Part shown: positions 8,739-23,956 of the stretch, one piece after another
How the letters are laid out: every line of letters starts with the position of its first letter
How positions within the stretch are numbered: position 1 is the stretch's first letter
NCBI GenBank assembly: GCA_034520215.1
Contig: JAXHNR010000001.1
Coordinates: 858,560-922,559 of the forward strand
Reading direction: 5' to 3'
Origin: Candidatus Krumholzibacteriota bacterium
GTDB taxonomy: Bacteria > Krumholzibacteriota > Krumholzibacteriia > Krumholzibacteriales > WJIX01
DNA length: 64,000 nucleotides
Made by a program: the position numbers and the translations under genes
The notes under the pieces: generated by a model
The model's input: the letters and a program-made list of their open reading frames with translations, nothing else
Database searches by the model: none
What the model was told of the DNA's origin: nothing

Positions 8739-10043
<1,305 letters not shown>

Positions 10044-10286: not shown

Positions 10287-10359
10287 GGGCCGCTAGCTCA
10301 TCCGGCAGAGCATCTGCCTTTTAAGCAGGTGGTGCCAGGTTCGAGTCCTGGGCGGCCCA
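10287..10359 (+). tRNA. tRNA-Lys (anticodon TTT)
   Basis: The acceptor arms GGGCCGC and GCGGCCC pair fully and the discriminator is A. Anticodon loop CTTTTAA gives anticodon TTT at 10320-10322. The T-loop is TTCGAGT. The 3' CCA is not encoded. Confidence 0.96.
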
Positions 10360-10537
10360 CTTTAATTTCAACAACACTGTTTCAGAGGGTAGGAACCCAT
10401 AGCATTACACCTGAGTCATATATCCCCCACCTCTTTTTTTTAACGCCAATTATTAAATATTTATATTGATTAGATTTTTCCCCTCCTGCACTATCTAAGG
10501 AAGATATTGCGGTTTTTCTTGAAAGGGGTAATATAAA

Positions 10538-13297
10538 TTGGCGTATGTTCCCCTCCATGTCCATACTATAAACAGTCCCTACAGGGGAATGCTGACCTGT
10601 GAGGAGCTAATCGAGCAGTCTGTCCGAAAAGGATTCGGGGCAGTTGCCGTTACCGACTGCTGGAATACCTACGCGCATCATAAGTTCTACAGGCTCGCGC
10701 GTGAAGCCGGGATAAAACCGATACTTGGTCTCGAGATCCAGCACGAATCCCTTTCCGAAAGAGACGGGTTGTATCACCTGACATTATTAGCGGAGACAGA
10801 CACCGGATATGAGAACATCGTTTCTCTCGCGGCTCTGCACTATGCTAAAAAGAATTCAAAATATGTAACGGCAGAGGAGCTGGCCCAGAGGAGCGAAGGA
10901 ATAATCGCCCTTACAGGCTCTACCCGCGGAGAAGCCGCCCAGGCCCTCCTGCACGGAAATCAGGGAAGAGTAAAAGAGGTTCTGGAAAAACTGTCCAGCT
11001 TCTACGGCAGCGATAACCTCTTTTTGGAGTTGATGAATCACAATACCGAGAAGGACTGGTTTATCTGCGAAAACTTTTCGAGGTTTTCAAAGAAGATGGG
11101 CATACCTTCAGTGGTAACGAATAATGACAGATTCATTTCACCTGATGACGCCGATGGGTATTTTATGCTCCGCTCTATTGAGATGGGCGAGAAAAGGAAG
11201 GAAGAGAAAGAGGCCGCGGATGAATATTATCTTAAAGGGGAAAAAGAGCTCGAGCCTTTCTTTTATACGGTGAGAGATGCTATCGATCTTACCGCCCGGA
11301 TATCCCGAAGATGTAATGTTGAACTTAGATACGGTTACAGTCTGGGAATAAACTCAATCGAAGATCCAAAGGGGAAGCTTGAAGAGAAATGCAGAAGCCA
11401 GCTGCGCCGGTGCTTCTCGGTCAGAGGGGGAGAGATAGCTGAAAGTCTCGAGAATAATCTGGCGGTAGAACTAGAATCTGTTGAGAGAGAAGAGATAAGC
11501 GGATTCCTTCTCTTTCTTACCGAACTGCTAAAAAAATGCCGGGAAGAAGGTGTGGCGCTGGAAGTTGTAGGCGGAAGCCTGCAGGAGAGCTTTATTGCCT
11601 ATCTTTTAGGAATAACTATGCTTAATCCACTCGAGCACGGACTTGTTTTTGAATGTTTTTGTTCATCGGACAGGTTGTCTCTGCCGCAAATTGAATTTAT
11701 AAAGGCGTATGGAAAGAGGGAGTTGATTTTCGATATCATATCATCTCTTATTCCCGGTTCGTCGATTTATTACCAGGTGTCGCGGGAGGAGATGTCATAC
11801 GCTAAGATTATACAGGAAGTTTGCAGTGCGCTTGAGGCGGGAAAGAATATACAGAGCGAACTTGAAAATATTATCCCGAAACTTAAGAAAAAGAAAGACC
11901 TGCAGGCCATGCTCGAAAGTTCACCAGCGTTAAGGACCCTTTACAGCCAGAGTGATTTAGTAAGAAGGGCGCTGCACTTGGCTGGAATCCTGAAGGGAAA
12001 GATCTGTCATTTTAATATGAACTCCTCACGTGTTTTTATTCTTCCAAAAGGCACCGGCAGACAAATTACACGTATATACCTGCCGTCCGGAGAGTGTTTT
12101 CTGCAGTGTAACAGATATACAGTTGATCATCTGGGTGGGTGGACCTTTGTATTACACCACTCTCACGTTCTCTCGGCTATTGTAGAGACGATAAGACAGA
12201 TACACCTTGAGAAACCACCTGTAAAAGGTGACAAGATGTTGATGCCTGCCGAATTAGAGGATATATCCCTAGACGACAATGATACTTTTGATATGATATC
12301 TTCAGGGGACACTACCGGGGTCTACCTGCTGGAAAGCCGGGGGGTAAGGGATATTCTAAGAAAAATAACCCCGCGGAATTTCAATCAACTTGTAACCGCG
12401 CTTTCTCTTTACAGGCCTGCTCCCCTTGAGGGCGGTCTTTGGAAGACATATGTAGATAACGGGTCTAAAGGGGATGGAGTAGAGCTTCCTGACAGTTCTC
12501 TCGCCGAGGCGCTAAAGGATACAAGAGGGGTTTTGCTCTTTATCGAGCAGGTGAGAAAAATAATAGAGCTGTCCGCCGGATTAAGGGGAAAGACAGCTTT
12601 TGAGATTGAAAGGGCGCTTAAGACTAGAGATTCGGGAGCTCTGATGAAGGCGAGGCTGAATTTTATCCGAGGAGCGATGGAGAACGGAATCAGTGAAAAT
12701 AAGGGTGACCGGATCTTCGACTTTCTCATCAAGAATATAAAGTACACTCATGATAAGGCATTGAGCTGCTCGCAGGCCTATCTGACATTCAGAAGCGCCT
12801 ATATGAAAACTCACTACTTCGAGCACTATTTCGCGGCTCTTCTAAGTGTTTACGGGAATTCTCCCGACAAATTCAAAAGATGCGCCGATTATTTTAAAAG
12901 CAGGGGAGGGAAGCTTCTGCCTCCGGATATAAATTCAAGCTGTGAATATTACACTGCCGAAGGGCTGGATATACGCTCACCTTTAAGCAATTATAAAGGA
13001 ATAGATATTGAAACCGTCAGACAGATCGCTTCAGAAAGAAGAAAAGACGGAGAGTTTAAGGGGCTTGACGATTTCCTGAGGCGTCTTGCGGATATCCCTG
13101 AAATGACTGTCTGCGGGATGATAGAAGAAGGTTTCTTCGACAGCATCGATCCTGACAGAACTTCAATGATAGATAAATGCGTGATGATCTATAAAGGGAA
13201 AAAGATACAGAATCCCTCCGGCTCTGAATCTCCGCGGAATGAGAATAGCAAAAGAGAGGAAAAACCAGGCCAGTTTTCACTTTTCGATGACGAGTAA
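10538..13297 (+). CDS. DnaE-like protein lacking the polymerase catalytic aspartates
   Basis: This 919-aa protein follows the bacterial Pol III alpha (DnaE, C-family) architecture: an N-terminal PHP-like domain (HVHTINSPYRGM), palm and finger segments (GDTTGVYLLESRG, YRPAPLEGG, THDKALSCSQAY) and a C-terminal HhH part. It is shorter than replicative DnaE (about 1100-1160 aa). Where active DnaE has PDIDIDF/PDFDVDF, this protein reads LPQIEFI, so two essential aspartates are gone. The upstream GRGS-type motif is GGSLQES, and the PHP TDH becomes TDC. The C-terminus PGQFSLFDDE resembles a beta-clamp-binding motif. Start is TTG with AAAGGGG 9 nt upstream. I infer a non-polymerising paralogue, possibly a replisome or repair adaptor; a degenerate remnant is less likely because the frame is intact. 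Confidence 0.8.
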   Translation: MAYVPLHVHTINSPYRGMLTCEELIEQSVRKGFGAVAVTDCWNTYAHHKFYRLAREAGIKPILGLEIQHESLSERDGLYHLTLLAETDTGYENIVSLAALHYAKKNSKYVTAEELAQRSEGIIALTGSTRGEAAQALLHGNQGRVKEVLEKLSSFYGSDNLFLELMNHNTEKDWFICENFSRFSKKMGIPSVVTNNDRFISPDDADGYFMLRSIEMGEKRKEEKEAADEYYLKGEKELEPFFYTVRDAIDLTARISRRCNVELRYGYSLGINSIEDPKGKLEEKCRSQLRRCFSVRGGEIAESLENNLAVELESVEREEISGFLLFLTELLKKCREEGVALEVVGGSLQESFIAYLLGITMLNPLEHGLVFECFCSSDRLSLPQIEFIKAYGKRELIFDIISSLIPGSSIYYQVSREEMSYAKIIQEVCSALEAGKNIQSELENIIPKLKKKKDLQAMLESSPALRTLYSQSDLVRRALHLAGILKGKICHFNMNSSRVFILPKGTGRQITRIYLPSGECFLQCNRYTVDHLGGWTFVLHHSHVLSAIVETIRQIHLEKPPVKGDKMLMPAELEDISLDDNDTFDMISSGDTTGVYLLESRGVRDILRKITPRNFNQLVTALSLYRPAPLEGGLWKTYVDNGSKGDGVELPDSSLAEALKDTRGVLLFIEQVRKIIELSAGLRGKTAFEIERALKTRDSGALMKARLNFIRGAMENGISENKGDRIFDFLIKNIKYTHDKALSCSQAYLTFRSAYMKTHYFEHYFAALLSVYGNSPDKFKRCADYFKSRGGKLLPPDINSSCEYYTAEGLDIRSPLSNYKGIDIETVRQIASERRKDGEFKGLDDFLRRLADIPEMTVCGMIEEGFFDSIDPDRTSMIDKCVMIYKGKKIQNPSGSESPRNENSKREEKPGQFSLFDDE

Positions 13298-13377: not shown

Positions 13378-13451
13378 GTCCCCATCGTCTAGTCAGGATA
13401 GGACACTGCCCTTTCACGGCGGCAACACGGGTTCGAATCCCGTTGGGGGCA
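13378..13451 (+). tRNA. tRNA-Glu (anticodon TTC)
   Basis: Acceptor arms GTCCCCA and TGGGGGC pair with one wobble. Anticodon loop CTTTCAC gives TTC at 13413-13415; the T-loop is TTCGAAT. CCA is not encoded. It lies 174 nt before the recombinase gene, a common location for integrating elements, but no second copy of its 3' end was found downstream. Confidence 0.95.
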
Positions 13452-13624
13452 CTACAACTTCTTTTCATCGTTAAGGCAAAGCAAAGCCCTGCCGCCGCGG
13501 AAATACACTTGCCATATAACCTATATTCCTGATAAACTAAAAGATGCGGATTTCTAATCGGGGACAATTCTGTATAGAGCTAAAACATATACATTAGCTG
13601 GTAAATGGAAAGGGTGAGGATGTG

Positions 13625-14533
13625 ATGGGGAAGATTAGGGACCTGATGATAAATCAGCTTAAATTGAGAGGTTACAGCCCTCGAACGCTGAAAGTGTATA
13701 TTCAGCATGCCAGGGCTTTTGTTCGTTTTACAGGGAAAAGCCCCGCGCGGACCGGAAAAAAAGAAATATTAAACTACATGATGTATCTTACGAAGGAGAA
13801 GAAAGTCTCCCTTTCCTATAGAAATCAGACCGTAAGCGCTCTGAAATTTCTCTATAAATATGTACTTAAAAAACCCTGGGTAATAGAGGAGCTTCCAAGG
13901 CCGAAAAAGGCCTCGAGGCTGCCTGTTGTTCTCAGCGCGCGGGAAGTATCAAGACTTCTCTCTGAAGTTCCAAACAGAAAGCATAAGGCTATAATGGTAG
14001 TTGCCTATTCAGCGGGATTGAGGGTTGGAGAGGTTGTAAGACTCAAAGTCAGCGATATTGACCCGGAACGCATGATGATACATGTTAAAGGCGGTAAGGG
14101 AAGAAAGGACAGATATACTATTCTTTCAGTCCTCGCGCTGAACGTTCTGCGTGATTACGCCTATTTCTATAAGCCGAAGAAGTGGCTATTTCCCGGAGGG
14201 AGGGAAGGGAGGCATATTACTGAGAGATCTGTACAGAAGGTAGTAGCCGGAGCTGCAAAAAAAGCAGGTATCAGAAAGCATGTCACAACACATACCCTCA
14301 GACACAGTTTCGGAACACATCTGCTTGAAAATGGAACTGATTTAAGGTACATTCAGGAACTGCTGGGACACAAAAGCGCGAGAACAACTCAAATCTATAC
14401 ACATGTTTCAAAAAGAGACCTGGCGAGAATAGTATCGCCCCTCGACAGAATGGATATAGACAGAGAGAAGAGCAGCGTGATAGGTGGCGGACCAGACAGA
14501 AAAAGTAATTGTAAAGAGAATGGAAACACTTAA
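13625..14533 (+). CDS. Tyrosine recombinase (XerC/D or IntI-like) heading the cassette array
   Basis: The N-terminal SAM-like DNA-binding domain (KLRGYSPRTLKVYIQHARAF) is followed by the catalytic domain. Conserved residues are visible: Arg in AGLRVGE, Lys in VKGGKGRKDR, His-x-x-Arg in HTLRHSFGTHLLENG, His in LLGH and the nucleophile Tyr in TTQIYTHV, followed by an SPLD end as in integron integrases. The 15-25 aa insertion typical of IntI between the Lys and HxxR motifs is absent (LRDYAYFYKPKKWLFPG continues as in XerC/D). It lies between tRNA-Glu and the first cassette junction and is transcribed in the same direction as the cassettes, unlike class 1 integrons. GTG 13622 is an alternative start. 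It may catalyse attC recombination; this is inferred from position. Confidence 0.85.
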   Translation: MGKIRDLMINQLKLRGYSPRTLKVYIQHARAFVRFTGKSPARTGKKEILNYMMYLTKEKKVSLSYRNQTVSALKFLYKYVLKKPWVIEELPRPKKASRLPVVLSAREVSRLLSEVPNRKHKAIMVVAYSAGLRVGEVVRLKVSDIDPERMMIHVKGGKGRKDRYTILSVLALNVLRDYAYFYKPKKWLFPGGREGRHITERSVQKVVAGAAKKAGIRKHVTTHTLRHSFGTHLLENGTDLRYIQELLGHKSARTTQIYTHVSKRDLARIVSPLDRMDIDREKSSVIGGGPDRKSNCKENGNT

Positions 14534-14574
14534 AAACAGCAGCAGAACAAAAGGTACGCATATCTCCGACATTA

Positions 14575-14740
14575 GAGGAGATAACGAACATTACAAACGC
14601 GACAACAAAGCCAAGGAGGAATAACAAGAAACACCCACAACCCAAAAACAACCAGAGGGTTTAACATGAAACATACAAACGCAAATCCCGGGGGGATAAC
14701 ATATAAAAACAACAATCCCCCCGCAAATAAAGTGTTATGC
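14575..14740 (+). repeat. Four ~40-nt direct repeats ending at the first cassette core site (attI-like candidate)
   Basis: Purine runs followed by ATAAC or TTAAC recur at 14581, 14621, 14661 and 14696, i.e. at 40-, 40- and 35-nt intervals. The context is (G)AGGAG-ATAAC, GAGGA-ATAAC, AGGGT-TTAAC and GGGGG-ATAAC, each followed by A-rich tracts; ACAAACGC occurs in copies 1 and 3. The + strand is almost free of T between 14585 and 14650. The last unit also contains an inverted pair (GGGGGGAT / ATCCCCCC), and the stretch ends in a core-site-like GTTATGC at 14734-14740. This spacing would suit recombinase-binding direct repeats of an attI site. The rest of the 14534-14764 gap holds no convincing gene. 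Confidence 0.5.
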
Positions 14741-14764
14741 GTAATACGATAGGATTTAGATCTC

Positions 14765-15469
14765 ATGGATGAAACAGAAAAAATTGCGAAAGAATATATA
14801 AAGTTAAAAGGTTACAAGAACATTGAATATGAACCTGATGGTAATATACCTCCTGATTTTCTGGTTAATGGAGAAATTGCTATTGAAGTTAGGCGCTTAA
14901 ATCAAAATATCAGAACAGAGGAGGGATATGAAGGATTAGAGAATGCTCACTTTCCTGTCTGGGAGAGAATAAGAGAACATCTAATATCATATGGCGCGTC
15001 CAAAACAGGAGAATCTTGGTATGTTACTTATTGGTTTGAAAGACCTATTCCTGATTGGAAGACGCTCAAAGCAAAAATTGAGAGAGTATTATTGAAATTC
15101 AGAGATCTAGGTCCTCACAAAAACACGGAATACGATATAAATAATCGTTTTAAAATTAAGATATATCGTGCTTCAAAAGAGCATTCAAAATTCTATTTGT
15201 TTGGAGGTTGTATTGATCGTGATGCATGTGGATTTGTTATGGCTAAGCTTTTGAATAACTTAGATATCTGCATAAAAGAAAAAACAGAAAAAATTAAAGC
15301 ATATAAAGGCCAATACCCTTATTGGTGGTTAATCTTGGTTGACCATATAGATTATTCCATGGAAGAGATTGACCGGAAATTTTTTCAAGAAGAAGCAAAG
15401 ATTTCGCACAACTGGGATAAAGTGATTTTGGTTGATCCAACTAACCCAGGAAGATCGTTTGAGATCTAA
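14765..15469 (+). CDS. Cassette 1: hypothetical protein, possible PD-(D/E)XK-like fold
   Basis: This 234-aa protein is not a recognised named family. The N-terminal part reads PDFLVNGEIAIEVRRLNQ at about residues 25-42, which resembles the PD...ExK core of restriction-like nucleases but with Arg in place of Lys (EVR). The C-terminal part is rich in aromatic residues (YPYWWLILVDH). It is the first gene of the array, 24 nt after the GTTATGC core site. The AT-rich composition differs from the flanking chromosome. The nuclease idea is inference only. Confidence 0.65.
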   Translation: MDETEKIAKEYIKLKGYKNIEYEPDGNIPPDFLVNGEIAIEVRRLNQNIRTEEGYEGLENAHFPVWERIREHLISYGASKTGESWYVTYWFERPIPDWKTLKAKIERVLLKFRDLGPHKNTEYDINNRFKIKIYRASKEHSKFYLFGGCIDRDACGFVMAKLLNNLDICIKEKTEKIKAYKGQYPYWWLILVDHIDYSMEEIDRKFFQEEAKISHNWDKVILVDPTNPGRSFEI

Positions 15470-15657
15470 TTGCCATTATCATTTATCTAACCCATGGTTA
15501 TAATAGCTACTTATTTAACTATTACAGCAGATTTTCCCGCAATTAAGGTGGAGGGCTAAAAATATTTAAAATATAAATTATAGACTATTACTATTATTCT
15601 GAGTGATTATTAGTCAGTCTTATCGATCTTAAACGAATGGGATATCTATCGTTCTAC

Positions 15658-15748
15658 GCATAACAGCAGATATGCGCTTCGCCCTTCGGGCTCGGCCTGA
15701 CGGCACATCCGGCAGAGCCGGATGTCGCATATCCGCGAAATGTTATAT
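15658..15748 (+). repeat. attC-like site 1
   Basis: Outer ends GCATAAC (15658-15664) and GTTATAT (15742-15748) flank nested arms, notably AGATATGCG with CGCATATCC and CATCCGGC with GCCGGATG. At 91 nt it lies within the known attC size range. Confidence 0.75.
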
Positions 15749-15784
15749 GACAGATGCCTTTGCAAAATTCAGAGAGGACATTTT

Positions 15785-16561
15785 TTGGATATTAGAGAAA
15801 TTGCAGGAATTGATCAAAATTATTACTCAATCAATCGAGAAGAACGAAACTACGCGGCCATCTTCTTTACAGCTCTGTGTCGGCCTGGAAATATCACGAA
15901 GTTCCTGGAGTTATGCGACTGCGATCTTTCAGAGCAGGTCAGCGATGATTTTGGAATATACTTCGAGTACGCCTATCTTCGCGATCTCTGGTATAGGATA
16001 GATGACGAGGAGATAAAGAAAGAGATCATTCGTGAGAACTTGAAAATTAAAGGAATTGACCAGCTTCTTTCCAAGCCGACTGTTGAGATAAACGAAAACT
16101 TTGGGGTGGCCGGAACAGCTTCAGACAGATACATCCAATTTCCAGGGAAGTGGTCTCTCAAAAAGTATTATAGGAATTTTCCTGACAGTGACGATCTGCT
16201 GAAAATCTGCAAGTTCAAATGGTCATTCAACATCAAGCCGGATATTGTTATTCACCTGGATAAGGATACAGCGATCTGCATTGAGGCAAAGTACGAATCC
16301 AGAGAAGGATTTTATCCGTCTTCGGGAGAAGAGAAAAAGATCTTTTATGACATGGGGCTTGATTTTGTTGGGCAGACCGAACTTCAAAAATACATGATGG
16401 AAGATCTACTTGGCATAGAGAGTGAGTTCATTTTCCTGGTTTACAAGAAACAGCAAAGCGATTCTCATAGGGTTATAAGCTGGCAGGAGGCATTTGACAT
16501 TCTTGATTTAACTGATATGCCCAATTTTGCTCTTAGAATGATTGAAAACATATCGGGATAG
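15785..16561 (+). CDS. Cassette 2: PD-(D/E)XK nuclease-like protein
   Basis: The C-terminal half contains KPDIVIHLDKDTAICIEAKYES, the PD...(D/E)xK spacing and beta-hairpin pattern of restriction-type nucleases. A defence role (for example an anti-phage nuclease) is plausible but not shown. The frame also has ATGs at 15722 and 15740, but both lie inside the attC site. TTG 15785 has AGAGAGGA 6 nt upstream and gives a protein starting MDIREIAGID, so I prefer it. It ends 25 nt before the next attC. Uncharacterised family. Confidence 0.7.
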   Translation: MDIREIAGIDQNYYSINREERNYAAIFFTALCRPGNITKFLELCDCDLSEQVSDDFGIYFEYAYLRDLWYRIDDEEIKKEIIRENLKIKGIDQLLSKPTVEINENFGVAGTASDRYIQFPGKWSLKKYYRNFPDSDDLLKICKFKWSFNIKPDIVIHLDKDTAICIEAKYESREGFYPSSGEEKKIFYDMGLDFVGQTELQKYMMEDLLGIESEFIFLVYKKQQSDSHRVISWQEAFDILDLTDMPNFALRMIENISG

Positions 16562-16585
16562 GTTTACTATTAGGGGCATCCGTCA

Positions 16586-16674
16586 ATATAACAAGGCATT
16601 CCCGCAACGCCGCGAAGCGCGGCTTGCCCTGCGGGACACCCTGTCGGGTGTCGGGAATGCCTGAAATGTTATGC
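16586..16674 (+). repeat. attC-like site 2
   Basis: Outer ends are ATATAAC and GTTATGC. Long arms AAGGCATTCCCG and CGGGAATGCC enclose an inner stem GACACC/GGTGTC. It is nearly identical to site 11 at 27354, including a compensatory base-pair change in the inner stem. Confidence 0.8.
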
Positions 16675-16692
16675 GTAAGGCCAAATCATATT

Positions 16693-17643
16693 ATGGACGA
16701 ATCGTGGAATAAATTAAAAACCTATATTTTTAATCTTCAAAAGACTAACTATGTTGATTGCTTAGTACCAACATACAGATGCCCAAATAAATCAATACGA
16801 GCGCATTCAATACAAAAAAAAGGCGTCTTGGACTTGCTTAGCGAGAATGGCCACATATATAGAATCAAGAATGAACTTGACAGAGTATTTTGGGAGCGTG
16901 AAGGTATAAATAAAGCGACTACATTTAAGGGATTATGCAACAAACATGACACTGAGATATTCAGAGAGATCGATAGTAATCCAATCAATTTAGAAAATCC
17001 ATATCATCTATTTTTGCTTGCTTATAGATCTGTGCTCAGGGAGATGACCGTATTGATAGACGGTGCTCTCAGAAACTTGCAAGGATTTAGGAAAAAAGTG
17101 TCTTTAGGTTTATTGGATGATGAAGAACCATCATTTGAAGAGGCAAGGATGAACGGTTTATTTGTAAATGCCGAGGAGTTCTATGAAATCAAAAGGTTGT
17201 TCGATAATATTTATCTGTCAGAGGAGCTCTCTAAAATTAAGCATAAGACAATTATTATTGAAAATATACGACCTGCGATTGCTATAAGCTCAATTTTCAC
17301 ATATGCTGAGACAAAGGTTAAATCCGAGGATACAGAGAGGATTATACTAAATGTATATCCAGAAAATAATTCTCTTATTGTAGTTTTTTCATATAGAAAT
17401 ACAGATGAAGAATATATTGAAGCTAGGATATCAAATGTAATTGAATCAAAAGGCATGAATCAATTGTATCAACTTTCAAAAATGGTTTTACGAAATTGTT
17501 ATAATTTTATTGTATCACCAATTCTTTATCGTAGTTGGGATGAAGATAGGAAAAACATTATGCTTGATTTCTTCTTCAAAACAGCCACGCAAGACTTGAT
17601 CAATTATGAAGATGAACGTTTGTTTCTTTTTTGGGACAAGTAA
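16693..17643 (+). CDS. Cassette 3: uncharacterised protein with Cys/His (HNH-like) N-terminus
   Basis: The 316-aa product starts at ATG 16693; an in-frame ATG at 16624 lies within the attC and is unlikely. The N-terminal third has a C...AHSIQ...GLCNKHD arrangement (residues about 21-80) that resembles a zinc-stabilised HNH-type finger of a widespread uncharacterised protein family. The rest is mixed alpha/beta with no motif I recognise. It could be a nuclease or effector of a defence system; that is inference from the fold hint and cassette context. Confidence 0.65.
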   Translation: MDESWNKLKTYIFNLQKTNYVDCLVPTYRCPNKSIRAHSIQKKGVLDLLSENGHIYRIKNELDRVFWEREGINKATTFKGLCNKHDTEIFREIDSNPINLENPYHLFLLAYRSVLREMTVLIDGALRNLQGFRKKVSLGLLDDEEPSFEEARMNGLFVNAEEFYEIKRLFDNIYLSEELSKIKHKTIIIENIRPAIAISSIFTYAETKVKSEDTERIILNVYPENNSLIVVFSYRNTDEEYIEARISNVIESKGMNQLYQLSKMVLRNCYNFIVSPILYRSWDEDRKNIMLDFFFKTATQDLINYEDERLFLFWDK

Positions 17644-17654
17644 TTTGGCCCTAC

Positions 17655-17794
17655 GTATAACAGCAGTTTTGCGGCCTCCAGGCCTGACGGCCTTCCGGCG
17701 TAGATGGCCTTGTCACGCCGGCTGCAGGGCAGCCGGCGCGCCAGCCTGGCTGATGCCAGGCCCGGCCACCTCGCAAACGCTCGAAATGTTATAT
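17655..17794 (+). repeat. attC-like site 3
   Basis: Outer ends GTATAAC and GTTATAT flank a 140-nt GC-rich body with arms such as CAGGGCAGCC/GGCTG and GCCTGGC/GCCAGGC. It belongs to the same family as the sites at 19503 and 22968 (shared CCTTGTCACGCCGG and GGCCCGGCCACCTCGC blocks). Confidence 0.8.
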
Positions 17795-17814
17795 GAAAAA
17801 CGCGCTGATTGGTA

Positions 17815-17842
17815 TTGACAATAATTATAATATAGGTATAAT
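17815..17842 (+). promoter_or_regulatory. Cassette promoter for brnTA
   Basis: TTGACA (17815-17820) and TATAAT (17837-17842) are separated by 16 nt and end 6 nt before the brnT ATG. Toxin-antitoxin cassettes usually bring their own promoter. Confidence 0.7.
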
Positions 17843-17848
17843 ATAATT

Positions 17849-18146
17849 ATGATAAGGTTTGACTGGGACGAGAAGAAGAACAGGGCTAATCAGAAGAAGC
17901 ACGGTGTCTCCTTCCAAGAAGCTCAGACGGTGTTCTTTGATGATTACGCCATAGAATACGACGATCCCTTTCATTCAGACAGAGAAAGAAGACAGGTTTC
18001 TTATCATAGGAAGGAGCCTGCACCTTAGAGTCCTTGTCGTATGCCATTGTCTAAGAGCCAGGGGATCTGTGATCAGGATCATAACGGCAAGGAAGGCGAC
18101 AAAGAAAGAGCGTTATCATTACACGCATAGAGGTAATTTATCATGA
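17849..18146 (+). pseudogene. brnT: brnT toxin gene, frameshifted
   Basis: BrnT is the RelE-like ribonuclease toxin of the BrnTA type II system. The first part reads MIRFDWDEKKNRANQKKHGV and continues to HSDRER, as in BrnT. Around 17981-17991 (AGAGAAAGAAGACAGG) one extra base shifts the frame and creates an early stop. The other frame then resumes with DRFLIIGRSLHLRVLVVCHC and SVIRIITARKATKKERYHY, the conserved BrnT C-terminus. Its stop overlaps the brnA ATG (ATGA), so the operon layout is intact. It is either a natural inactivation or a sequencing error. Confidence 0.85.
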
Positions 18147-18361
18147 GAAAAGAATACGATTTTTCGAAGATGAAAGGACGAAGGAATCCTTATGCCGCAA
18201 AGCTCAAGAAGCAGGTCACGATAAGGCTGGGGGTGGACGTTATCGCCTATTTCAAGGAGTTAGCAAAAGAGACGGGGATTCCTTACCAGAATCTGATAAA
18301 CTTGTATCTTCGAGATTGTGTGGTTTCAGGGAAGAAGCCAGTTCTTAACTGGCAGCCGTAA
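18143..18361 (+). CDS. brnA: Cassette 4: BrnA antitoxin
   Basis: This 72-aa antitoxin starts within the brnT stop codon (ATGA). It has the KGRRNPYAAKLKKQVTIRLG motif and a ribbon-helix-helix segment (DVIAYFKELAKETGIPYQNLINLYLRDC) typical of BrnA. It would neutralise BrnT and repress the pair. With brnT broken it may survive as an antitoxin against related toxins. Confidence 0.88.
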   Translation: MRKEYDFSKMKGRRNPYAAKLKKQVTIRLGVDVIAYFKELAKETGIPYQNLINLYLRDCVVSGKKPVLNWQP

Positions 18362-18407
18362 TGAAGGTCGCGTATTCTTGTGATATTAACTAGGAGGCGC
18401 GTTCTCC

Positions 18408-18528
18408 ATATAACAAATGTGTTCACGGCTGTGCTTGGCACCCGGGCTGCAGAGCATCCCGGCCGCCAATGCTCGCGCAAATCGCTGACCGAAGGGAAGC
18501 GATTTCGCAAACCTGCGAAATGTTATAT
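18408..18528 (+). repeat. attC-like site 4
   Basis: Outer ends ATATAAC and GTTATAT; 121 nt. Inner arms include AATCGCT...AGCGATT and CCCGGGCTGC/GCATCCCGG. It is the same family as the sites at 20481 and 33318 (shared CACCCGGGCTGC and GAAGCGATTTCGC). Confidence 0.8.
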
Positions 18529-18560
18529 GATCAGTCGCGCAAAGATGGTTCGATAACATA

Positions 18561-19478
18561 ATGGAACAACATTCAATAGAAGAACTGAATAATTATGATG
18601 CCTATCATAAAGGTGATAATTCATTCTCTGCCTATGCTCGATATCTCCAGAGTAAATGGAGGGTGAGGAAGGGGTATCCGAAGCAAAAGAATAAACTTGG
18701 AAATTATCTTCCAGTGGAATTTGCAAAGGAAACTAAAGCTAACTTTCTGACAAATAGAATAGGAAATCTGGTTCAGTCAGAGGTTGATAAATCTAAAGTC
18801 CTGGGAAGCATGATAAGTGAACCGAGAATTTGGAATAATCTATTGTCGTCTCAACCACTGTGTTTTAACCTCTTCGGTGAATTACATTTCGATTTAGATT
18901 TAGCGACAAAAGTTTTTCAAGCACTATTTCCCAATAAAATAAGCAAAGTTACTGACGTAAAATTCGAATATTCACCGGGACGCGGAGATAAGAATTACAC
19001 AGGAGATCACTCCGCTTTTGATGCCTTTATAGAATATGATAACGAAAAGGCTCAATCTGAATACATAGGCATCGAAGTAAAGTATTCCGAAAATATGCGG
19101 CAAAGAAGAGAGGATTCCATAAAGACTTATCACAAACATAAGAGGGAGTATCTTAAAATTGCTAAGAGCGCCGGAATATTCCCAGAATCTTCAATTGAAA
19201 TACTTCGAGAGAGTCCACTTCAACAAATTTGGCGAGATCATTTATTATCCTTAGCAACAGAAAAAGATTACAGTGGAGGGTTTTTTATTTTTCTCCATCC
19301 TGAGCAAAACAAAAAATGTCATGAAGCCTACAAAGATTATATTCAGCTCCTAAATTCATCTGATCCAGATATAACCAAAATCTATTCAATTACCCTTGAA
19401 AAGTTTCTTGATATTTTGTTCAAATTAAATAGTTCAACTTGGGTAATAGAATTAAGAGAACGATACTTGGGCATTTAA
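18561..19478 (+). CDS. Cassette 5: PGN_0703-like putative restriction endonuclease
   Basis: The 305-aa protein has a restriction-like core near residues 155-180: DHSAFDAFIEYD followed by IGIEVKYSE, giving the D...ExK active-site pattern. Together with the N-terminal YHKGDNSFSAYARYLQSKWR start, this resembles the PGN_0703 family of putative restriction endonucleases. No methyltransferase partner lies next to it. Defence against foreign DNA is the likely role. The start is ATG 18561, 33 nt after the attC core. Confidence 0.72.
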   Translation: MEQHSIEELNNYDAYHKGDNSFSAYARYLQSKWRVRKGYPKQKNKLGNYLPVEFAKETKANFLTNRIGNLVQSEVDKSKVLGSMISEPRIWNNLLSSQPLCFNLFGELHFDLDLATKVFQALFPNKISKVTDVKFEYSPGRGDKNYTGDHSAFDAFIEYDNEKAQSEYIGIEVKYSENMRQRREDSIKTYHKHKREYLKIAKSAGIFPESSIEILRESPLQQIWRDHLLSLATEKDYSGGFFIFLHPEQNKKCHEAYKDYIQLLNSSDPDITKIYSITLEKFLDILFKLNSSTWVIELRERYLGI

Positions 19479-19502
19479 AGGTTTGTATGCGCGACCGACA
19501 TA

Positions 19503-19673
19503 TATCAACAGGTTTGCGGCTACGGGCCGGCGGCCCTTCGCGCAGGTGTCCTCTGTCACGCCGGGTGCTAGAGTTTAAGTATGGAGAGTTGGCCGCGACC
19601 ACCACCCGCACCCGTCGCGACAACCTGGCTAACGCCAGGCCCGGCCACCTCGCAAATGCTCGAAATATTAATG
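19503..19673 (+). repeat. attC-like site 5, degenerate 3' core
   Basis: The 5' end TATCAAC and the body match the family of site 3, but the 3' core reads ATTAATG where relatives have GTTATAT (G to A at the cleavage-proximal position). A stretch around 19565-19615 departs from the family consensus. It is probably poorly active. Confidence 0.6.
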
Positions 19674-19702
19674 ATATGCCGCTATAATATTAGTGTCTTG
19701 GG

Positions 19703-19745
19703 TTGACAAACGATTCTTATCGAACTATAATCTTACTAGTAAGAT
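19703..19745 (+). promoter_or_regulatory. Promoter with overlapping 16-nt palindromic operator
   Basis: TTGACA (19703-19708) and TATAAT (19726-19731) are spaced by 17 nt. A perfect 16-nt palindrome (ATCTTACTAGTAAGAT, 19730-19745) overlaps the end of the -10 box and the start region. It precedes the AbrB-type antitoxin gene, which is the likely repressor. Confidence 0.75.
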
Positions 19746-19762
19746 AATCAAAGGAGCAAAAA

Positions 19763-20026
19763 ATGAGAGATCCTTCTACTACGCGTATGTCATCAAAGGG
19801 GCAAGTAGTCATTCCAGAAGAAGTGAGAGATCGCTTGGGCCTAAAAACTGGCACACAATTCGTTGTCGTGGCCGAGGGGGATGTAGTGATTCTCAAGACC
19901 CTATCGCCGCCATCTATGGAACAGTTTGATGGACTTATTGCCAAAGCCAGAAAACAAGCTCGAGCAGCTGGAATGAAGCGTTCTGATATAGAAAAGGCTA
20001 AGAAAAAAGCGAGAAAACGCCATTGA
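19763..20026 (+). CDS. Cassette 6a: AbrB/MazE-type antitoxin
   Basis: An 87-aa swapped-hairpin DNA-binding protein: TRMSSKGQVVIPEEVRDRLGLKTGTQF is the classical SpoVT/AbrB signature, followed by a basic helical tail that would bind the toxin. It is co-transcribed with the PIN gene, overlapping it by 4 nt, and probably autoregulated through the palindrome at 19730. Confidence 0.9.
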   Translation: MRDPSTTRMSSKGQVVIPEEVRDRLGLKTGTQFVVVAEGDVVILKTLSPPSMEQFDGLIAKARKQARAAGMKRSDIEKAKKKARKRH

Positions 20027-20424
20027 GAGTGATACTGGATACAAACGTATTCATCTCAGGAGTGTTCTTTTCGGGGCCGCCATACCAGATTCTTGATGCT
20101 TGGCGTAAAGATAAGATAAAGCTAGTTATATCTCCTGAGATTTTTGAGGAATATAGGAGGGTAGGCGAAGAGCTGACGAAGGATTATCCCGGCGTCAGTT
20201 TAGGTCCATTTCTTTCATTGGCTGTTCTGGAATCCGAGATAGTTTTAGCTCCAAAGCTCAATGAACAAATATGCGCTGATCCAGATGATGACAAGTTCAT
20301 ATCATGTGCTATTGTATCTGGCTGCAGATGTATTGTAACCGGGGACAAGCAACTGAAGAAATTATCCGGGCATAGAGACTTGGAGATCCTTACACCCAGG
20401 CAGTTTGTTGATAAATATCTTTAA
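20023..20424 (+). CDS. Cassette 6b: PIN-domain toxin (VapC-like)
   Basis: PIN-fold ribonucleases of this type cleave RNA with a quartet of acidic residues. Here they are D in VILDTNVFISG, E in EEYRRV, and the D/D pair in DPDDDKF...VTGDKQL. At 133 aa it matches the putative-toxin PIN family often paired with AbrB antitoxins. TTG 20023 overlaps the antitoxin stop; GTG 20029 is an alternative. The reading frame is intact. Confidence 0.88.
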   Translation: MRVILDTNVFISGVFFSGPPYQILDAWRKDKIKLVISPEIFEEYRRVGEELTKDYPGVSLGPFLSLAVLESEIVLAPKLNEQICADPDDDKFISCAIVSGCRCIVTGDKQLKKLSGHRDLEILTPRQFVDKYL

Positions 20425-20480
20425 ATGGTATAGTGGCTGAATTATAGTTTTATTAATTACAGCATCTTTAGCGGCACATC

Positions 20481-20600
20481 ACATAACACAGTGTTCGCGG
20501 CTGTGCTTGGCACCCGGGCTGCGCAGCACCCCAGCCGCCAAGCTCCGCGCAAATCGCTGACCGAAGGGAAGCGATTTCGCGAGCACTCTAAATGTTATAT
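20481..20600 (+). repeat. attC-like site 6
   Basis: Outer ends ACATAAC and GTTATAT; 120 nt; same family as site 4, sharing CTGTGCTTGGCACCCGGGCT and the AATCGCT/AGCGATT arms. Confidence 0.78.
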
Positions 20601-20745
20601 GAAATAGCGCGCAGAATAAAATAATAAATGAGTGTCATAATCTCTCTTCCTATTCCCGTTTATTAAAAATAAAAGAGGTTGTAATTTTCAAGAATTTTAT
20701 TTAAAATATTATATGACGATAATAATTGAGGATGGAGAGATTATT

Positions 20746-20892
20746 ATGACAGATAAAGAGCCTAAAAAGATTGTCAGAGATATGCGGAAATTTGAGAAAA
20801 AGATTATCTCTTCTTCAGAGAAGTCTAAGAAACTCATCATAAAAGCAGGTATTTGCACACCTAAAGGTAATTTGACGAAACCGTATAAATAA
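20746..20892 (+). CDS. Cassette 7a: 48-aa putative antitoxin
   Basis: This small, very basic protein starts MTDKEPKKIVRDMRKFEKK and ends IKAGICTPKGNLTKPYK. The ending (AGI...G.LT..Y) recurs, to my knowledge, in small proteins encoded directly before ART-like toxin candidates and other TA pairs. It has GGAGAG before its ATG and is followed after 4 nt by the larger gene, so the two are certainly co-transcribed. Antitoxin function is inferred from size and position. Confidence 0.65.
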   Translation: MTDKEPKKIVRDMRKFEKKIISSSEKSKKLIIKAGICTPKGNLTKPYK

Positions 20893-20896
20893 ACTT

Positions 20897-21526
20897 ATGA
20901 GTTCTTCTATATACTCTACCCTCCCAAACTTAGTTTTAGGATTTCATGGCTGTGATCGAAGTGTTGCCGAAAAAATTATATCCGGAAAAGATAGACTGAA
21001 AGAAAGCTCCAATTCTTATGATTGGCTTGGTGGTGGAATATATTTCTGGGAGAATAATCCATCTCGAGCACTTCATTTTGCGAATACTTTGAAAGATAAT
21101 CCCGAAAGAGCTAGAGTTGAAATCAAACATCCTGCAGTTATAGGTGCAATTATAGATTTAGGATATTGCTTTAATCTACTAGATCATGAAAATATCAAAA
21201 TATTAAAAAAAGGGTATGATTTCTTAATCTCAGCTCTAAAGAAAGCAAACTTACCAATACCCAAAAACAAATCAGGCGGAGACAGTAGGGATTTGCTTTT
21301 AAAAAAACTTGATCGAGCAGTTATAGATTTTATTCACACATATAACGATGAGAACAATGAGCGGTCCTACGATTCTGTGAGAGCTGCATATATTGAGGGT
21401 GATGAGGTATACCCTACTGCGGGATTTAACGAAAAGAATCATATCCAAATATGCATACGCAATCCCAATTGTATAAAGGGCTATTTTCTTCCACTAGAAA
21501 GAACTAAGAAATATATTGTTCCCTAG
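20897..21526 (+). CDS. Cassette 7b: putative ADP-ribosyltransferase-like toxin (DUF3990-like)
   Basis: The 209-aa protein begins LVLGFHGCDRSVAEKIISG and has YDWLGGGIYFWENNPSRALHFA. The order F-H-G ... G-x-Y-F ... resembles the ART fold of DUF3990-like and PARP-like toxins (H-Y-E type active sites). Later segments include DSVRAAYIEGDEVYPTAGFNEKNHIQICI, where an acidic or Gln residue could complete the site. With the small gene before it, it forms a likely toxin-antitoxin pair. Catalysis and target are unknown. Confidence 0.68.
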   Translation: MSSSIYSTLPNLVLGFHGCDRSVAEKIISGKDRLKESSNSYDWLGGGIYFWENNPSRALHFANTLKDNPERARVEIKHPAVIGAIIDLGYCFNLLDHENIKILKKGYDFLISALKKANLPIPKNKSGGDSRDLLLKKLDRAVIDFIHTYNDENNERSYDSVRAAYIEGDEVYPTAGFNEKNHIQICIRNPNCIKGYFLPLERTKKYIVP

Positions 21527-21538
21527 TGGGTAATATTT

Positions 21539-21571
21539 ACATAACACGACGTATAACCGCAAACGTTATAT
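21539..21571 (+). repeat. Collapsed attC remnant
   Basis: ACATAAC, GTATAAC and GTTATAT occur within 33 nt around CGCAAAC, so both ends of an attC remain but the central stem is deleted. Confidence 0.5.
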
Positions 21572-21613
21572 GAAAGCGGCGATTAGTATAGTTTAGATGA
21601 AAGGTGAATCATA

Positions 21614-22522
21614 ATGACAATCCCTGATTTTCAAAGTATTATGCTTCCTTTACTTCAATTAGCAGCTGATGGTAAAGAACATTCCATCCGTAATGCTATA
21701 GAAGAACTATCAGACCAATTTGAATTGACCGATGATGAAAGAGAAGATTTTCTGCCAAGCGGGAGACAACATACTTTCGACAATCGAGTTGGATGGGCCA
21801 GAACGTACATGAAGAAGGCAGGGTTGCTAAAATATACTCGTCGAGGTCATTTTTGTATTACCGATAGAGGAAGAGAGATTCTTTTAGAAAACCCCCAATA
21901 TATCAATATTAAATTGCTGAAACGTTTTCCCGAATTTGTTGAATTTCAATCTGGAAAGAAAAAATCCAAAGATGATGCAAAGCAGAAAGAAATTGAAACT
22001 AATGAAACTCCAGAAGAATTACTTGAAAATTCATATCAAGAATTGAGAAATAATTTAGCATTGGACTTACTTGATACCGTAAAAGATTTGTCTCCAAAGT
22101 ATTTTGAAGAGATAGTGGTTGATTTATTAGTACAAATGGGATACGGAGGGTCTCGTATTGAAGCTGGTAAAGCGATTGGGAAAAGTGGTGATGAGGGCAT
22201 AGATGGAATTATCAAAGAAGATAAACTTGGATTGGATATTATTTATATCCAAGCTAAAAAATGGAACAACAATGTAGGACGTCCAGATATACAAAAATTT
22301 GCAGGTGCTCTGCAGGGCAAGCGTGCTAGAAAAGGGATTTTCATCACAACGGCTGAATTCAGTAAAGAAGCCGAAAACTATGTTTCAAAAATTGAATCAA
22401 AGATAATTTTAATTGATGGTCGCAAGTTTGCCGAACTTATGATTGATCATGATGTAGGCGTATCCACTGTTGCTTCTTACAAGATTAAAAGGATAGATCT
22501 AGATTATTTTACAGAAAGTTAA
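21614..22522 (+). CDS. Cassette 8: Mrr-type restriction endonuclease (type IV)
   Basis: Mrr enzymes cut modified DNA. The N-terminal winged-helix domain (FDNRVGWARTYMKKAGLL...GHFCITDRGREIL) recognises DNA. The C-terminal catalytic domain starts LSPKYFEEIVVDLLVQMGYGG and contains GDEGIDGIIKEDKLGLDIIYIQAKKW, the D...QxK nuclease core. The end (KGIFITTAEFSKEAENYV) is typical. At 302 aa it is complete. It stands alone in its cassette. Confidence 0.92.
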   Translation: MTIPDFQSIMLPLLQLAADGKEHSIRNAIEELSDQFELTDDEREDFLPSGRQHTFDNRVGWARTYMKKAGLLKYTRRGHFCITDRGREILLENPQYINIKLLKRFPEFVEFQSGKKKSKDDAKQKEIETNETPEELLENSYQELRNNLALDLLDTVKDLSPKYFEEIVVDLLVQMGYGGSRIEAGKAIGKSGDEGIDGIIKEDKLGLDIIYIQAKKWNNNVGRPDIQKFAGALQGKRARKGIFITTAEFSKEAENYVSKIESKIILIDGRKFAELMIDHDVGVSTVASYKIKRIDLDYFTES

Positions 22523-22554
22523 ATAATTTTTATGGCAGTAATAATCGCCGCCTC

Positions 22555-22573
22555 CATATAAAAAGTGTTATAC
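22555..22573 (+). repeat. Collapsed attC remnant
   Basis: CCATATA is separated by only 5 nt from GTTATAC (22567-22573), a strongly reduced attC end. It marks the boundary between the mrr and cupin cassettes. Confidence 0.4.
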
Positions 22574-22601
22574 GAAATTGAACAAATGAGGGAGGAATTC
22601 A

Positions 22602-22943
22602 ATGCTGGAAGATAAGAACAATAAAAGCATCGACAGCAGTGTCGTTTTTAAATTAGCGGAATTAGCTGGGTATCAACAAGGATCGGTAGTTAGTCGAACA
22701 CTAATTGATAAAAAAGTAGGAACGGTTACTTTTTTCTCATTCGATGAAGGTCAGGGATTGAGCGAGCACAGTACTCCCTTCGATGCTTTGGTAAATGTTG
22801 TTGATGGGGAAGCTGAAATTACAATATCAGGCAAACAATATTATTTAAAAGCAGGTGAAAGCATAATCATGCCAGCTAATAAACCCCATTCGTTGAATGC
22901 GGCAAAGCAATTTAAAATGGTTTTAGTAATGATCAAAGGATAA
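22602..22943 (+). CDS. Cassette 9: cupin-domain protein
   Basis: The single cupin barrel (113 aa) has motif 1 LSEHSTPFDALVNVVDGEAE and motif 2 GESIIMPANKPHSLNA. The metal-ligand set is partial: one His in each motif and Asp in place of the second motif-1 His. It may bind a small molecule or metal. AGGGAGGAATTC precedes the ATG. Cupin singletons are common integron cargo; no function can be assigned. Confidence 0.85.
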   Translation: MLEDKNNKSIDSSVVFKLAELAGYQQGSVVSRTLIDKKVGTVTFFSFDEGQGLSEHSTPFDALVNVVDGEAEITISGKQYYLKAGESIIMPANKPHSLNAAKQFKMVLVMIKG

Positions 22944-22967
22944 TGGTACCTGGGTATGTTCAAATTC

Positions 22968-23105
22968 GTATAACAAAGGTGTTCGCGGCTACGGGCCAGG
23001 GGCCCTTCGCCCAGATGGCCTTGTCACGCCGGCTGTAGGGCAGCCGCCGCGCCAGCCTGGCTGACGCCAGGCCCGGCCACCTCGCAAACGCTCGGAATGT
23101 TAGGC
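22968..23105 (+). repeat. attC-like site 7
   Basis: GTATAAC...GTTAGGC, 138 nt, same family as site 3. The 3' core GTTAGGC fits the GTTRRRY consensus exactly. Confidence 0.82.
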
Positions 23106-23164
23106 GACATTGGATAAACATACAAGTGGGGTGAGAATATCGAATATGAAAGGAGGAACAACGC

Positions 23165-23956
23165 ATGGAACTATCGCAAGTGAAAGAAAAAGCAAAACAA
23201 ATAAAAGAATGGGTTGGTCTTAGTACATATCCCGTAGGAGTAAAGTTCATCTTTGGAAATGGACAGATAAGCGACATGAATATAGAAAGACTGCATGGAT
23301 ATAGATACTGTCAGGCGTTGATGAAAGCAAGACACGGAGAACATGTTTTACTCGATGCCGAGGGCATTGCCTGTCCAGCAGCAGCAGCGGCATTTGGTTT
23401 TAAACCCCTGCCCGAAGGGTTAAAAACGGGTAAGGGTCTAATTGGTTTTGGAATTACAAAGGAAGAATCAGTGGGAAAAAAGATGTTCACAGGGATGACT
23501 ATTTTAAAGCCGGGTGAACTTGAAGCTTTATATCTTTTCCCTCTTGAAACAGCCATTATTGAACCAGATGTAGTTGTAGTTGAAGATCAAATCGAAAATC
23601 TTATGTGGTTTGCTCTCGCCTATCTGAATGTTAAAGGGGGAGAAAGGGTCGAGAGTTCAACAGCGATACTTCAGGCAACCTGTGTAGATGGTACATTGAT
23701 TCCCTTTAAAGAGAAAAAAATGAATTTGAGTTATGGTTGTTATGGTTGCAGAGATGCAACAGATATCAAGCCGGATGAATCAGTTCTTGGATTTTCGTTC
23801 AATGATTTTGATAAAATATCTGAATACATTGAATATCTTTCATTAAAAGCTATACCCAATTCAAGACGGAAAAATGCTTTTACCCTACTAAACAAGAGAG
23901 ATGCTGTAGAACTCTCTAAAACAGATATATTTCAAACAAAAAAGAAGGAGGAATAA
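23165..23956 (+). CDS. Cassette 10a: DUF169 family protein
   Basis: DUF169 proteins (about 220-270 aa) are found mainly in anaerobes and methanogens. Here YPVGVKFIFGNG, the RYCQALMKARHGEHVLL segment, ACPAAAAAFGF, and the cysteine-rich LSYGCYGCRDA are visible. The cysteines suggest binding of a metal, haem or cluster. It shares a cassette with a ferredoxin-like gene 2 nt downstream, so an electron-transfer role for the pair is plausible. AAAGGAGG precedes the ATG. Exact role unknown. Confidence 0.85.
   Translation: MELSQVKEKAKQIKEWVGLSTYPVGVKFIFGNGQISDMNIERLHGYRYCQALMKARHGEHVLLDAEGIACPAAAAAFGFKPLPEGLKTGKGLIGFGITKEESVGKKMFTGMTILKPGELEALYLFPLETAIIEPDVVVVEDQIENLMWFALAYLNVKGGERVESSTAILQATCVDGTLIPFKEKKMNLSYGCYGCRDATDIKPDESVLGFSFNDFDKISEYIEYLSLKAIPNSRRKNAFTLLNKRDAVELSKTDIFQTKKKEE

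Follow-up and report, generated by a model that had tools for sequence, protein, structure and literature searches.

A predicted dead Pol III alpha paralogue with a clamp-binding-like tail in Krumholzibacteriota

To our knowledge, all known bacterial chromosomes are replicated by C-family polymerases. In a survey of ~2000 genomes, which left out fragmentary sequences whose active site was incomplete, the catalytic aspartates of this family (D401, D403 and D555) were absolutely conserved (PMC3919608). According to excerpts of a 2026 survey, the Y and the X family each have inactive members, and inactive PHP domains also occur; no inactive C-family group appears in those excerpts (PMC12926913). 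In addition, a literature search for inactive DnaE returned nothing relevant. ImuB already exemplifies dead polymerases that bind the clamp, and an example from the C family seems to be new.

The window, i.e. the whole stretch of 64,000 nucleotides that was analysed, comes from a Candidatus Krumholzibacteriota bacterium and carries a DnaE homologue that we call psDnaE (gene psdnaE; Table 1). Like DnaE1, psDnaE has the domain order PHP-palm-thumb-fingers-HhH, the corresponding fold (TM 0.81 to 2hpi) and a clamp motif at the corresponding place. In contrast to DnaE1, it lacks the catalytic aspartates, the nucleotide-binding motifs, the OB domain and the tau-binding domain, and its PHP site is degraded.

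Table 1. Features of the psdnaE locus, in window coordinates
Feature	Position	Strand	Basis
purA, conserved upstream neighbour and locus marker	8763..10043	+	
tRNA-Lys(TTT), locus marker between purA and psdnaE	10287..10360	+	
Candidate -35 element TTGATT, at a position common to most orthologous promoters	10466..10471	+	Upstream sequences of 21 orthologues
Probable ribosome-binding site GAAAGGGG	10521..10528	+	Read directly, 9 nt 5' of TTG
psdnaE, predicted dead DnaE (Pol III alpha) homologue	10538..13297	+	Pfam domains, 22/25 order genomes, dN/dS
PHP domain with degenerate metal site	10538..11332	+	Alignment with own and order DnaE1
TNNDR, in place of the final two metal ligands (D and H) of PHP	11117..11131	+	Invariant in orthologues
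LPQIEFI, residues 382-388, replacing MPDIDID	11681..11701	+	Alignment
V538, at the place of E. coli D555, the third catalytic aspartate	12149..12151	+	Alignment
Fingers domain, best conserved region together with PHP	12248..12907	+	Pfam, identity comparison
HhH region, with a more negative net charge than that of DnaE1	12911..13165	+	Pfam, charge comparison
QFSLF, predicted C-terminal beta-clamp-binding motif, residues 912-916	13271..13285	+	Motif conservation
tRNA-Glu(TTC), directly 3' of psdnaE	13378..13452	+	
Palindrome version CTATACATTTGTATAG, candidate LexA target in lexA-bearing relatives; no such box in the window promoter			

Domain organisation and active sites of psDnaE

The gene is an intact frame of 919 aa with a TTG start. 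Pfam profiles for PHP (4e-33), DNA_pol3_alpha (1e-21), DNA_pol3_finger (3e-34) and HHH_6 (6e-16) matched the product, and phmmer aligned its residues 3-879 with E. coli Pol III alpha (E 1e-89), placing LPQIEFI against the PDIDID-type motif. The AlphaFold model (pLDDT 84) has its best structural matches in Pol III alpha (2hpi, TM 0.81; 2hnh, 0.78). By Pfam and structure match, the PHP-Pol3-(HhH)2 core of C-family DNA polymerases is present, comprising PHP, palm/thumb, fingers and HhH regions. The genome (2.6 Mb, two contigs, 97% complete) contains exactly one other C-family gene, encoding a canonical DnaE1 of 1150 aa with PDIDIDF and an intact PHP motif (G000:C1:804217). The intact frame, LPQIEFI, GDTTGVYLLES (residues 590-600), YRPAPLEGG (residues 625-633) and QFSLF all lie where the initial annotation had placed them, and two of the checks that it proposed, a structure prediction and a search for an active dnaE elsewhere in the genome, gave the Pol III alpha-like model and the intact DnaE1 just described.

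The active sites were compared by sequence alignment, in which the 21 orthologues covering the site were set against the DnaE1 and DnaE2 proteins of their order. In the window protein, D401, D403 and D405 of MPDIDID (E. coli numbering) are replaced by Q384, E386 and I388, respectively. In all 21 covering orthologues, the D401 equivalent is non-acidic (Q, P, K, R, A, V or S), the D405 and D555 positions carry no acidic residue, and GPGRG and HASTHAAG are lost, with GYGFNKSHSAAYA replaced as well; the window protein has EVVGGS, HFNMNSSR and YTHDKALSCSQAY where GPGRGS and the nucleotide-binding motifs are expected. PDIDID itself, whose survival among orthologues had been chosen beforehand as the test of the idea, is kept in none of the 21. 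The initial claim that the catalytic aspartates are absent thus holds for D401 and D405 and extends to the third aspartate, D555, but the D403 position alone remains acidic (E or D in 21/21), so that a residual metal or DNA contact is possible there. On the strength of the alignment, we conclude that psDnaE is not a polymerase and would be unable to synthesise DNA. The proposal of a pseudo-polymerase is well supported by the loss of two of the three catalytic aspartate positions and of the nucleotide-binding motifs in every orthologue, by purifying selection on the gene and by the presence of an active dnaE1 elsewhere.

The PHP metal site retains H7, H9, E66 and H80, and TNDxH has become TNNDR; only four of the nine ligands of the exonuclease site HHDHEH[CH]DH remain in the window protein, suggesting that psDnaE is probably not a canonical PHP proofreader. 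Across the order, eight PHP residues do not vary (H7, H9, E66, H80, H168, N196, D197 and R198). Within the family, the fingers (57%) and PHP (52%) show the highest identity and, the tail linker aside, palm 2, thumb and HhH (36-37%) the lowest. The net charge of the HhH region is -8 in psDnaE versus -1 in DnaE1, and the fingers are slightly negative in psDnaE, whereas those of DnaE1 are positive; this shift hints at weaker DNA binding.

The psDnaE chain stops three residues past the clamp motif (QFSLF-DDE), and therefore it has none of the OB and tau-binding sequence that DnaE1 carries beyond this motif. The clamp-binding-like tail that had been predicted is conserved: a QxxLF-type (QxSLF-type) motif stands at the C-terminus of every orthologue with an intact end, and the psDnaE tail fits the clamp consensus better than does QTFLGF, the internal motif of DnaE1 in these cells. 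More divergent dead DnaEs have QMELPF, QLELPF, QLELGF or a degenerate form at or before their end, QMELPF and QLELPF being the tails of relatives in families f3 and f7 of the class. The f3 proteins keep a vestige of the OB strand, and judging from its sequence the protein of G033 seems still to have an OB domain. The clamp (DnaN) is encoded by a single gene in each of five genomes examined, and the only candidate partners observed throughout are DnaE1 and the clamp.

The dN/dS values of six psdnaE pairs are 0.17, 0.17, 0.17, 0.14, 0.06 and 0.16, and those of DnaE1 are 0.07-0.13 for the same genome pairs where both were comparable. psdnaE is under purifying selection.

Distribution, synteny and linkage to lexA

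psdnaE occurs in 22 of the 25 genomes of the window's order, the remaining three being draft MAGs. In a scan of genome contigs, a single-sequence query gave nothing, and an alignment-based query recovered the family on contigs labelled Krumholzibacteriota/Krumholzibacteriia, Latescibacterota, UBP1 or just 'bacterium'. Otherwise, the alignment scan gave ordinary DnaE, with PDxDxD intact in 61 of the 64 checked and three that the pattern did not settle. An apparent spread to 'WOR-3' (L085, CP070795) was rejected: the neighbour protein in L085 matches its counterpart in G010, and that in CP070727 (bin44), identically, and L085 contains a masked stretch, so that it is probably a chimeric MAG.

Divergent members, found from second-best DnaE matches in other families of the class, have partly degraded active sites. 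For example, the f3 proteins have PELDLDV (G029) or PEFELEV (G025), with D555 replaced by H in both, and the f7/f8 members (G040, G036, G033 and G044) have an xELEIQ-type motif, retain D555 and carry GPATG instead of GPGRG. No psDnaE was found with these profiles in f4, f5 and f6, where a part of the second DnaE matches was read by residue, and the purA loci of six f4-f6 genomes, one of them on a short contig, contain no psdnaE. The gene order purA, tRNA-Lys(TTT), psdnaE is common to f1, f3 and f8, and tRNA-Glu(TTC) follows psdnaE in f1, f2, f3 and f7, at nearly all loci where the contig reaches that far. On the phylogenetic tree, all pseudo-DnaEs fall on one side, separate from DnaE1, DnaE2 and outgroup DnaE (support 99/98), a grouping that calls for caution given the long branches. 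As the tree and the synteny agree, they argue for a single origin over several independent deaths, and we see the pseudo-DnaEs as one old family in a phylum-level group.

The surroundings of psdnaE hold two further features. Directly after the tRNA-Glu, the window encodes a tyrosine recombinase. Next come a PD-(D/E)XK nuclease of the REase-ARP type, a weak PARP-like protein, a restriction endonuclease of the Mrr type and a DUF169 protein; this segment (13622-23953) resembles a defence-carrying genomic island located at a tRNA, and no exact repeat of the tRNA-Glu of at least 14 nt was found elsewhere in the window. Upstream of psdnaE, a divergently oriented gene for a GAF-SpoIIE-type phosphatase is found at 11 loci of the order (L037, L038-L044, L047, L050 and L085).

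In four genomes of the window's order (G010, G014, G018 and G024) and two of f3 (G025 and G029), i.e. six genomes from two families, the next gene after psdnaE is lexA, which overlaps or lies near the psdnaE stop. Its product contains PF01726 and PF00717 (two tested), and the residues that serve in self-cleavage (Ala-Gly, Ser and Lys) are present. Upstream of psdnaE, the palindrome CTRHACAWAYGTTTAG or a near match occurs in G009, G010, G014, G016, G018, G022 and G024, and the clearest examples sit between a TTGATA-type -35 and a TAGTAT-type -10 element. These sites were first picked by eye; in leave-one-out scoring, 0-1 of 300 shuffles were as good. Searched genome-wide, the pattern CTRNACANNYGTNTAG hits the psdnaE promoter in six of seven genomes, with one extra match each in G010 (G010:C1:2085063) and G000 (G000:C2:371523, inside a nadA-like gene), which look like chance. 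As a candidate LexA box, the palindrome resembles the SOS box of M. xanthus, CTRHAMRYBYGTTCAGS (PMC9705874). Of the box, the f3 promoters show just the half-site CTAAAC, flanked by TTGAC and TACTATG, with a weak score in G025 (2/300) and a non-significant one in G029.

Genomes of the order without the box are also without an adjacent lexA, and most orthologues, the window's included, have neither. Compared with the upstream sequences of 21 orthologues, the window promoter shows no LexA-like box, and no protein with a LexA DNA-binding domain was found in the four genomes of the window's genus (G000-G003). Therefore, the evidence for damage-linked expression comes from the relatives, in which we infer that LexA may control psdnaE. 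The simplest reading would be an old psdnaE-lexA operon repressed by its own LexA, with this control lost in several lineages. Adjacent umuD-like and umuC genes are present in the LexA-less genus (G000:C2:612905-613725). Separate from the psdnaE-lexA operon, G010 has a second lexA with a Y-family gene and dnaE2 (G010:C1:3088350-3093279), apparently a cassette of the lexA-imuB-dnaE2 type, and similar loci occur in G004, G005, G006, G009, G011, G012 and G020.

Possible roles of psDnaE

At roughly even odds (a probability of about 0.5), we regard psDnaE as a clamp-tethered dead Pol III alpha paralogue that acts in the DNA-damage response by competing with DnaE1 for the clamp. The clamp-type tail and the lexA operon of the relatives together point to a role at damaged forks instead of DNA synthesis, and psDnaE probably helps to manage such forks. 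It would fold like DnaE, use the QFSLF at its C-terminus to dock on the beta clamp, and make no DNA; both this binding and the competition with DnaE1 are predictions. At a stalled fork, psDnaE would contend with DnaE1 for the clamp, and perhaps for the primer end too, and once DnaE1 had released the clamp, bypass or repair could proceed. A comparable takeover of the clamp from Pol III is possible for Pol IV (PMC5643309), and psDnaE would do likewise without synthesis. In the relatives, psdnaE synthesis would be tied to LexA through its place as the first gene of the operon, and in the window's genus, where LexA appears to have been lost, expression is probably constitutive. The broader scenario, in which a dead Pol III alpha family ancestral to the group, originally encoded in a psdnaE-lexA operon with a private LexA-type operator, makes up a hitherto undescribed DNA-damage response by serving as a dummy replicase that takes the clamp from the active one, is put forward tentatively, at somewhat less than even odds.

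The main rival reading, which we consider rather unlikely, is that psDnaE works as an adaptor similar to ImuB, holding the clamp and recruiting an active polymerase (UmuC, DinB, DnaE2 or DnaE1) in a mutasome. The logic would be that of ImuB, i.e. a dead polymerase with a clamp motif in a lexA context (PMC6511836), and imuB-like/dnaE2 cassettes exist in many relatives and umuDC in the window genome; however, psdnaE forms no conserved operon with a polymerase, and the protein ends at the clamp motif with no C-terminal domain resembling ImuB-C. Moreover, psdnaE occurs without DnaE2 in the window genome (G000), and in G014 (90% complete) neither DnaE2 nor a Y-family gene was detected, which argues that a bypass polymerase is not an obligatory partner; DnaE1 itself is a possible partner compatible with these absences. 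The ImuB-like scaffold suggested in the initial annotation is plausible, and the lexA linkage in six relatives adds a DNA-damage context to it, but the nearly complete window genome and G014 speak against an obligatory partnership with DnaE2 or a Y-family polymerase.

It is improbable that psDnaE is instead a remodelled and still catalytic PHP phosphoesterase or nuclease carried on a clamp-tethered polymerase scaffold. The eight PHP residues invariant in the order and the high conservation of PHP and fingers would fit such an enzyme, and, according to the excerpted survey, PolX proteins with an inactive polymerase but a retained PHP exonuclease are already known (PMC12926913). However, the window protein keeps only 4/9 canonical ligands, the D and H of TNDxH are replaced in every orthologue, and the f3 and f7 relatives miss other ligands, so that there is no family-wide metal site; a remodelled activity is possible within the window's order. 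Still less probable is a structural subunit of the replisome in normal replication, comparable to the dead polymerase half of Pol epsilon in eukaryotes: there are known cases of dead polymerase modules that serve structurally (PMC7308368), psdnaE is kept in most genomes of the order, and the window promoter is apparently constitutive, but the lexA linkage in six genomes, the missing tau-binding domain and the failure to find the gene in f4-f6 speak against it. Finally, psdnaE does evolve faster than DnaE1, as a decaying, functionless duplicate might; nevertheless, decay or an assembly artefact has only a very slight chance of being correct, because full-length orthologues stay open down to 38% identity, dN/dS is well below 1, and the tail and the synteny are conserved. 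A pseudogene and a sequencing or assembly artefact were ruled out by this selection and conservation.

Comparison with known polymerase systems

A conserved, selected, clamp-tailed dead DnaE with lexA linkage would be a counterpart of ImuB in the C family, and it would offer a natural test of whether clearing the replicase from the clamp alone helps after DNA damage. Like ImuB, psDnaE combines a presumed dead polymerase with a clamp motif, and part of its family is linked to LexA. However, ImuB belongs to the Y family, whereas psDnaE has a C-family fold and no ImuB-C domain; in addition, psdnaE is in no cassette with imuA or dnaE2, and dnaE2 is not adjacent in the loci read. With DnaE2/ImuC, psDnaE shares the status of an extra, lexA-linked DnaE paralogue with a short C-terminus, but DnaE2 retains the catalytic aspartates (PDFDIDF) and forms a separate clade (support 100). 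The C-terminus of Pol2 in Pol epsilon is another dead replicative polymerase, preserved in a structural capacity; unlike psDnaE, this dead half is of the B family, is fused to an active half and has a role in helicase assembly. PolX1 with an inactive site also combines, in bacteria, a dead polymerase site with a PHP domain, but it is an X-family protein and, in contrast to psDnaE, retains its PHP site.
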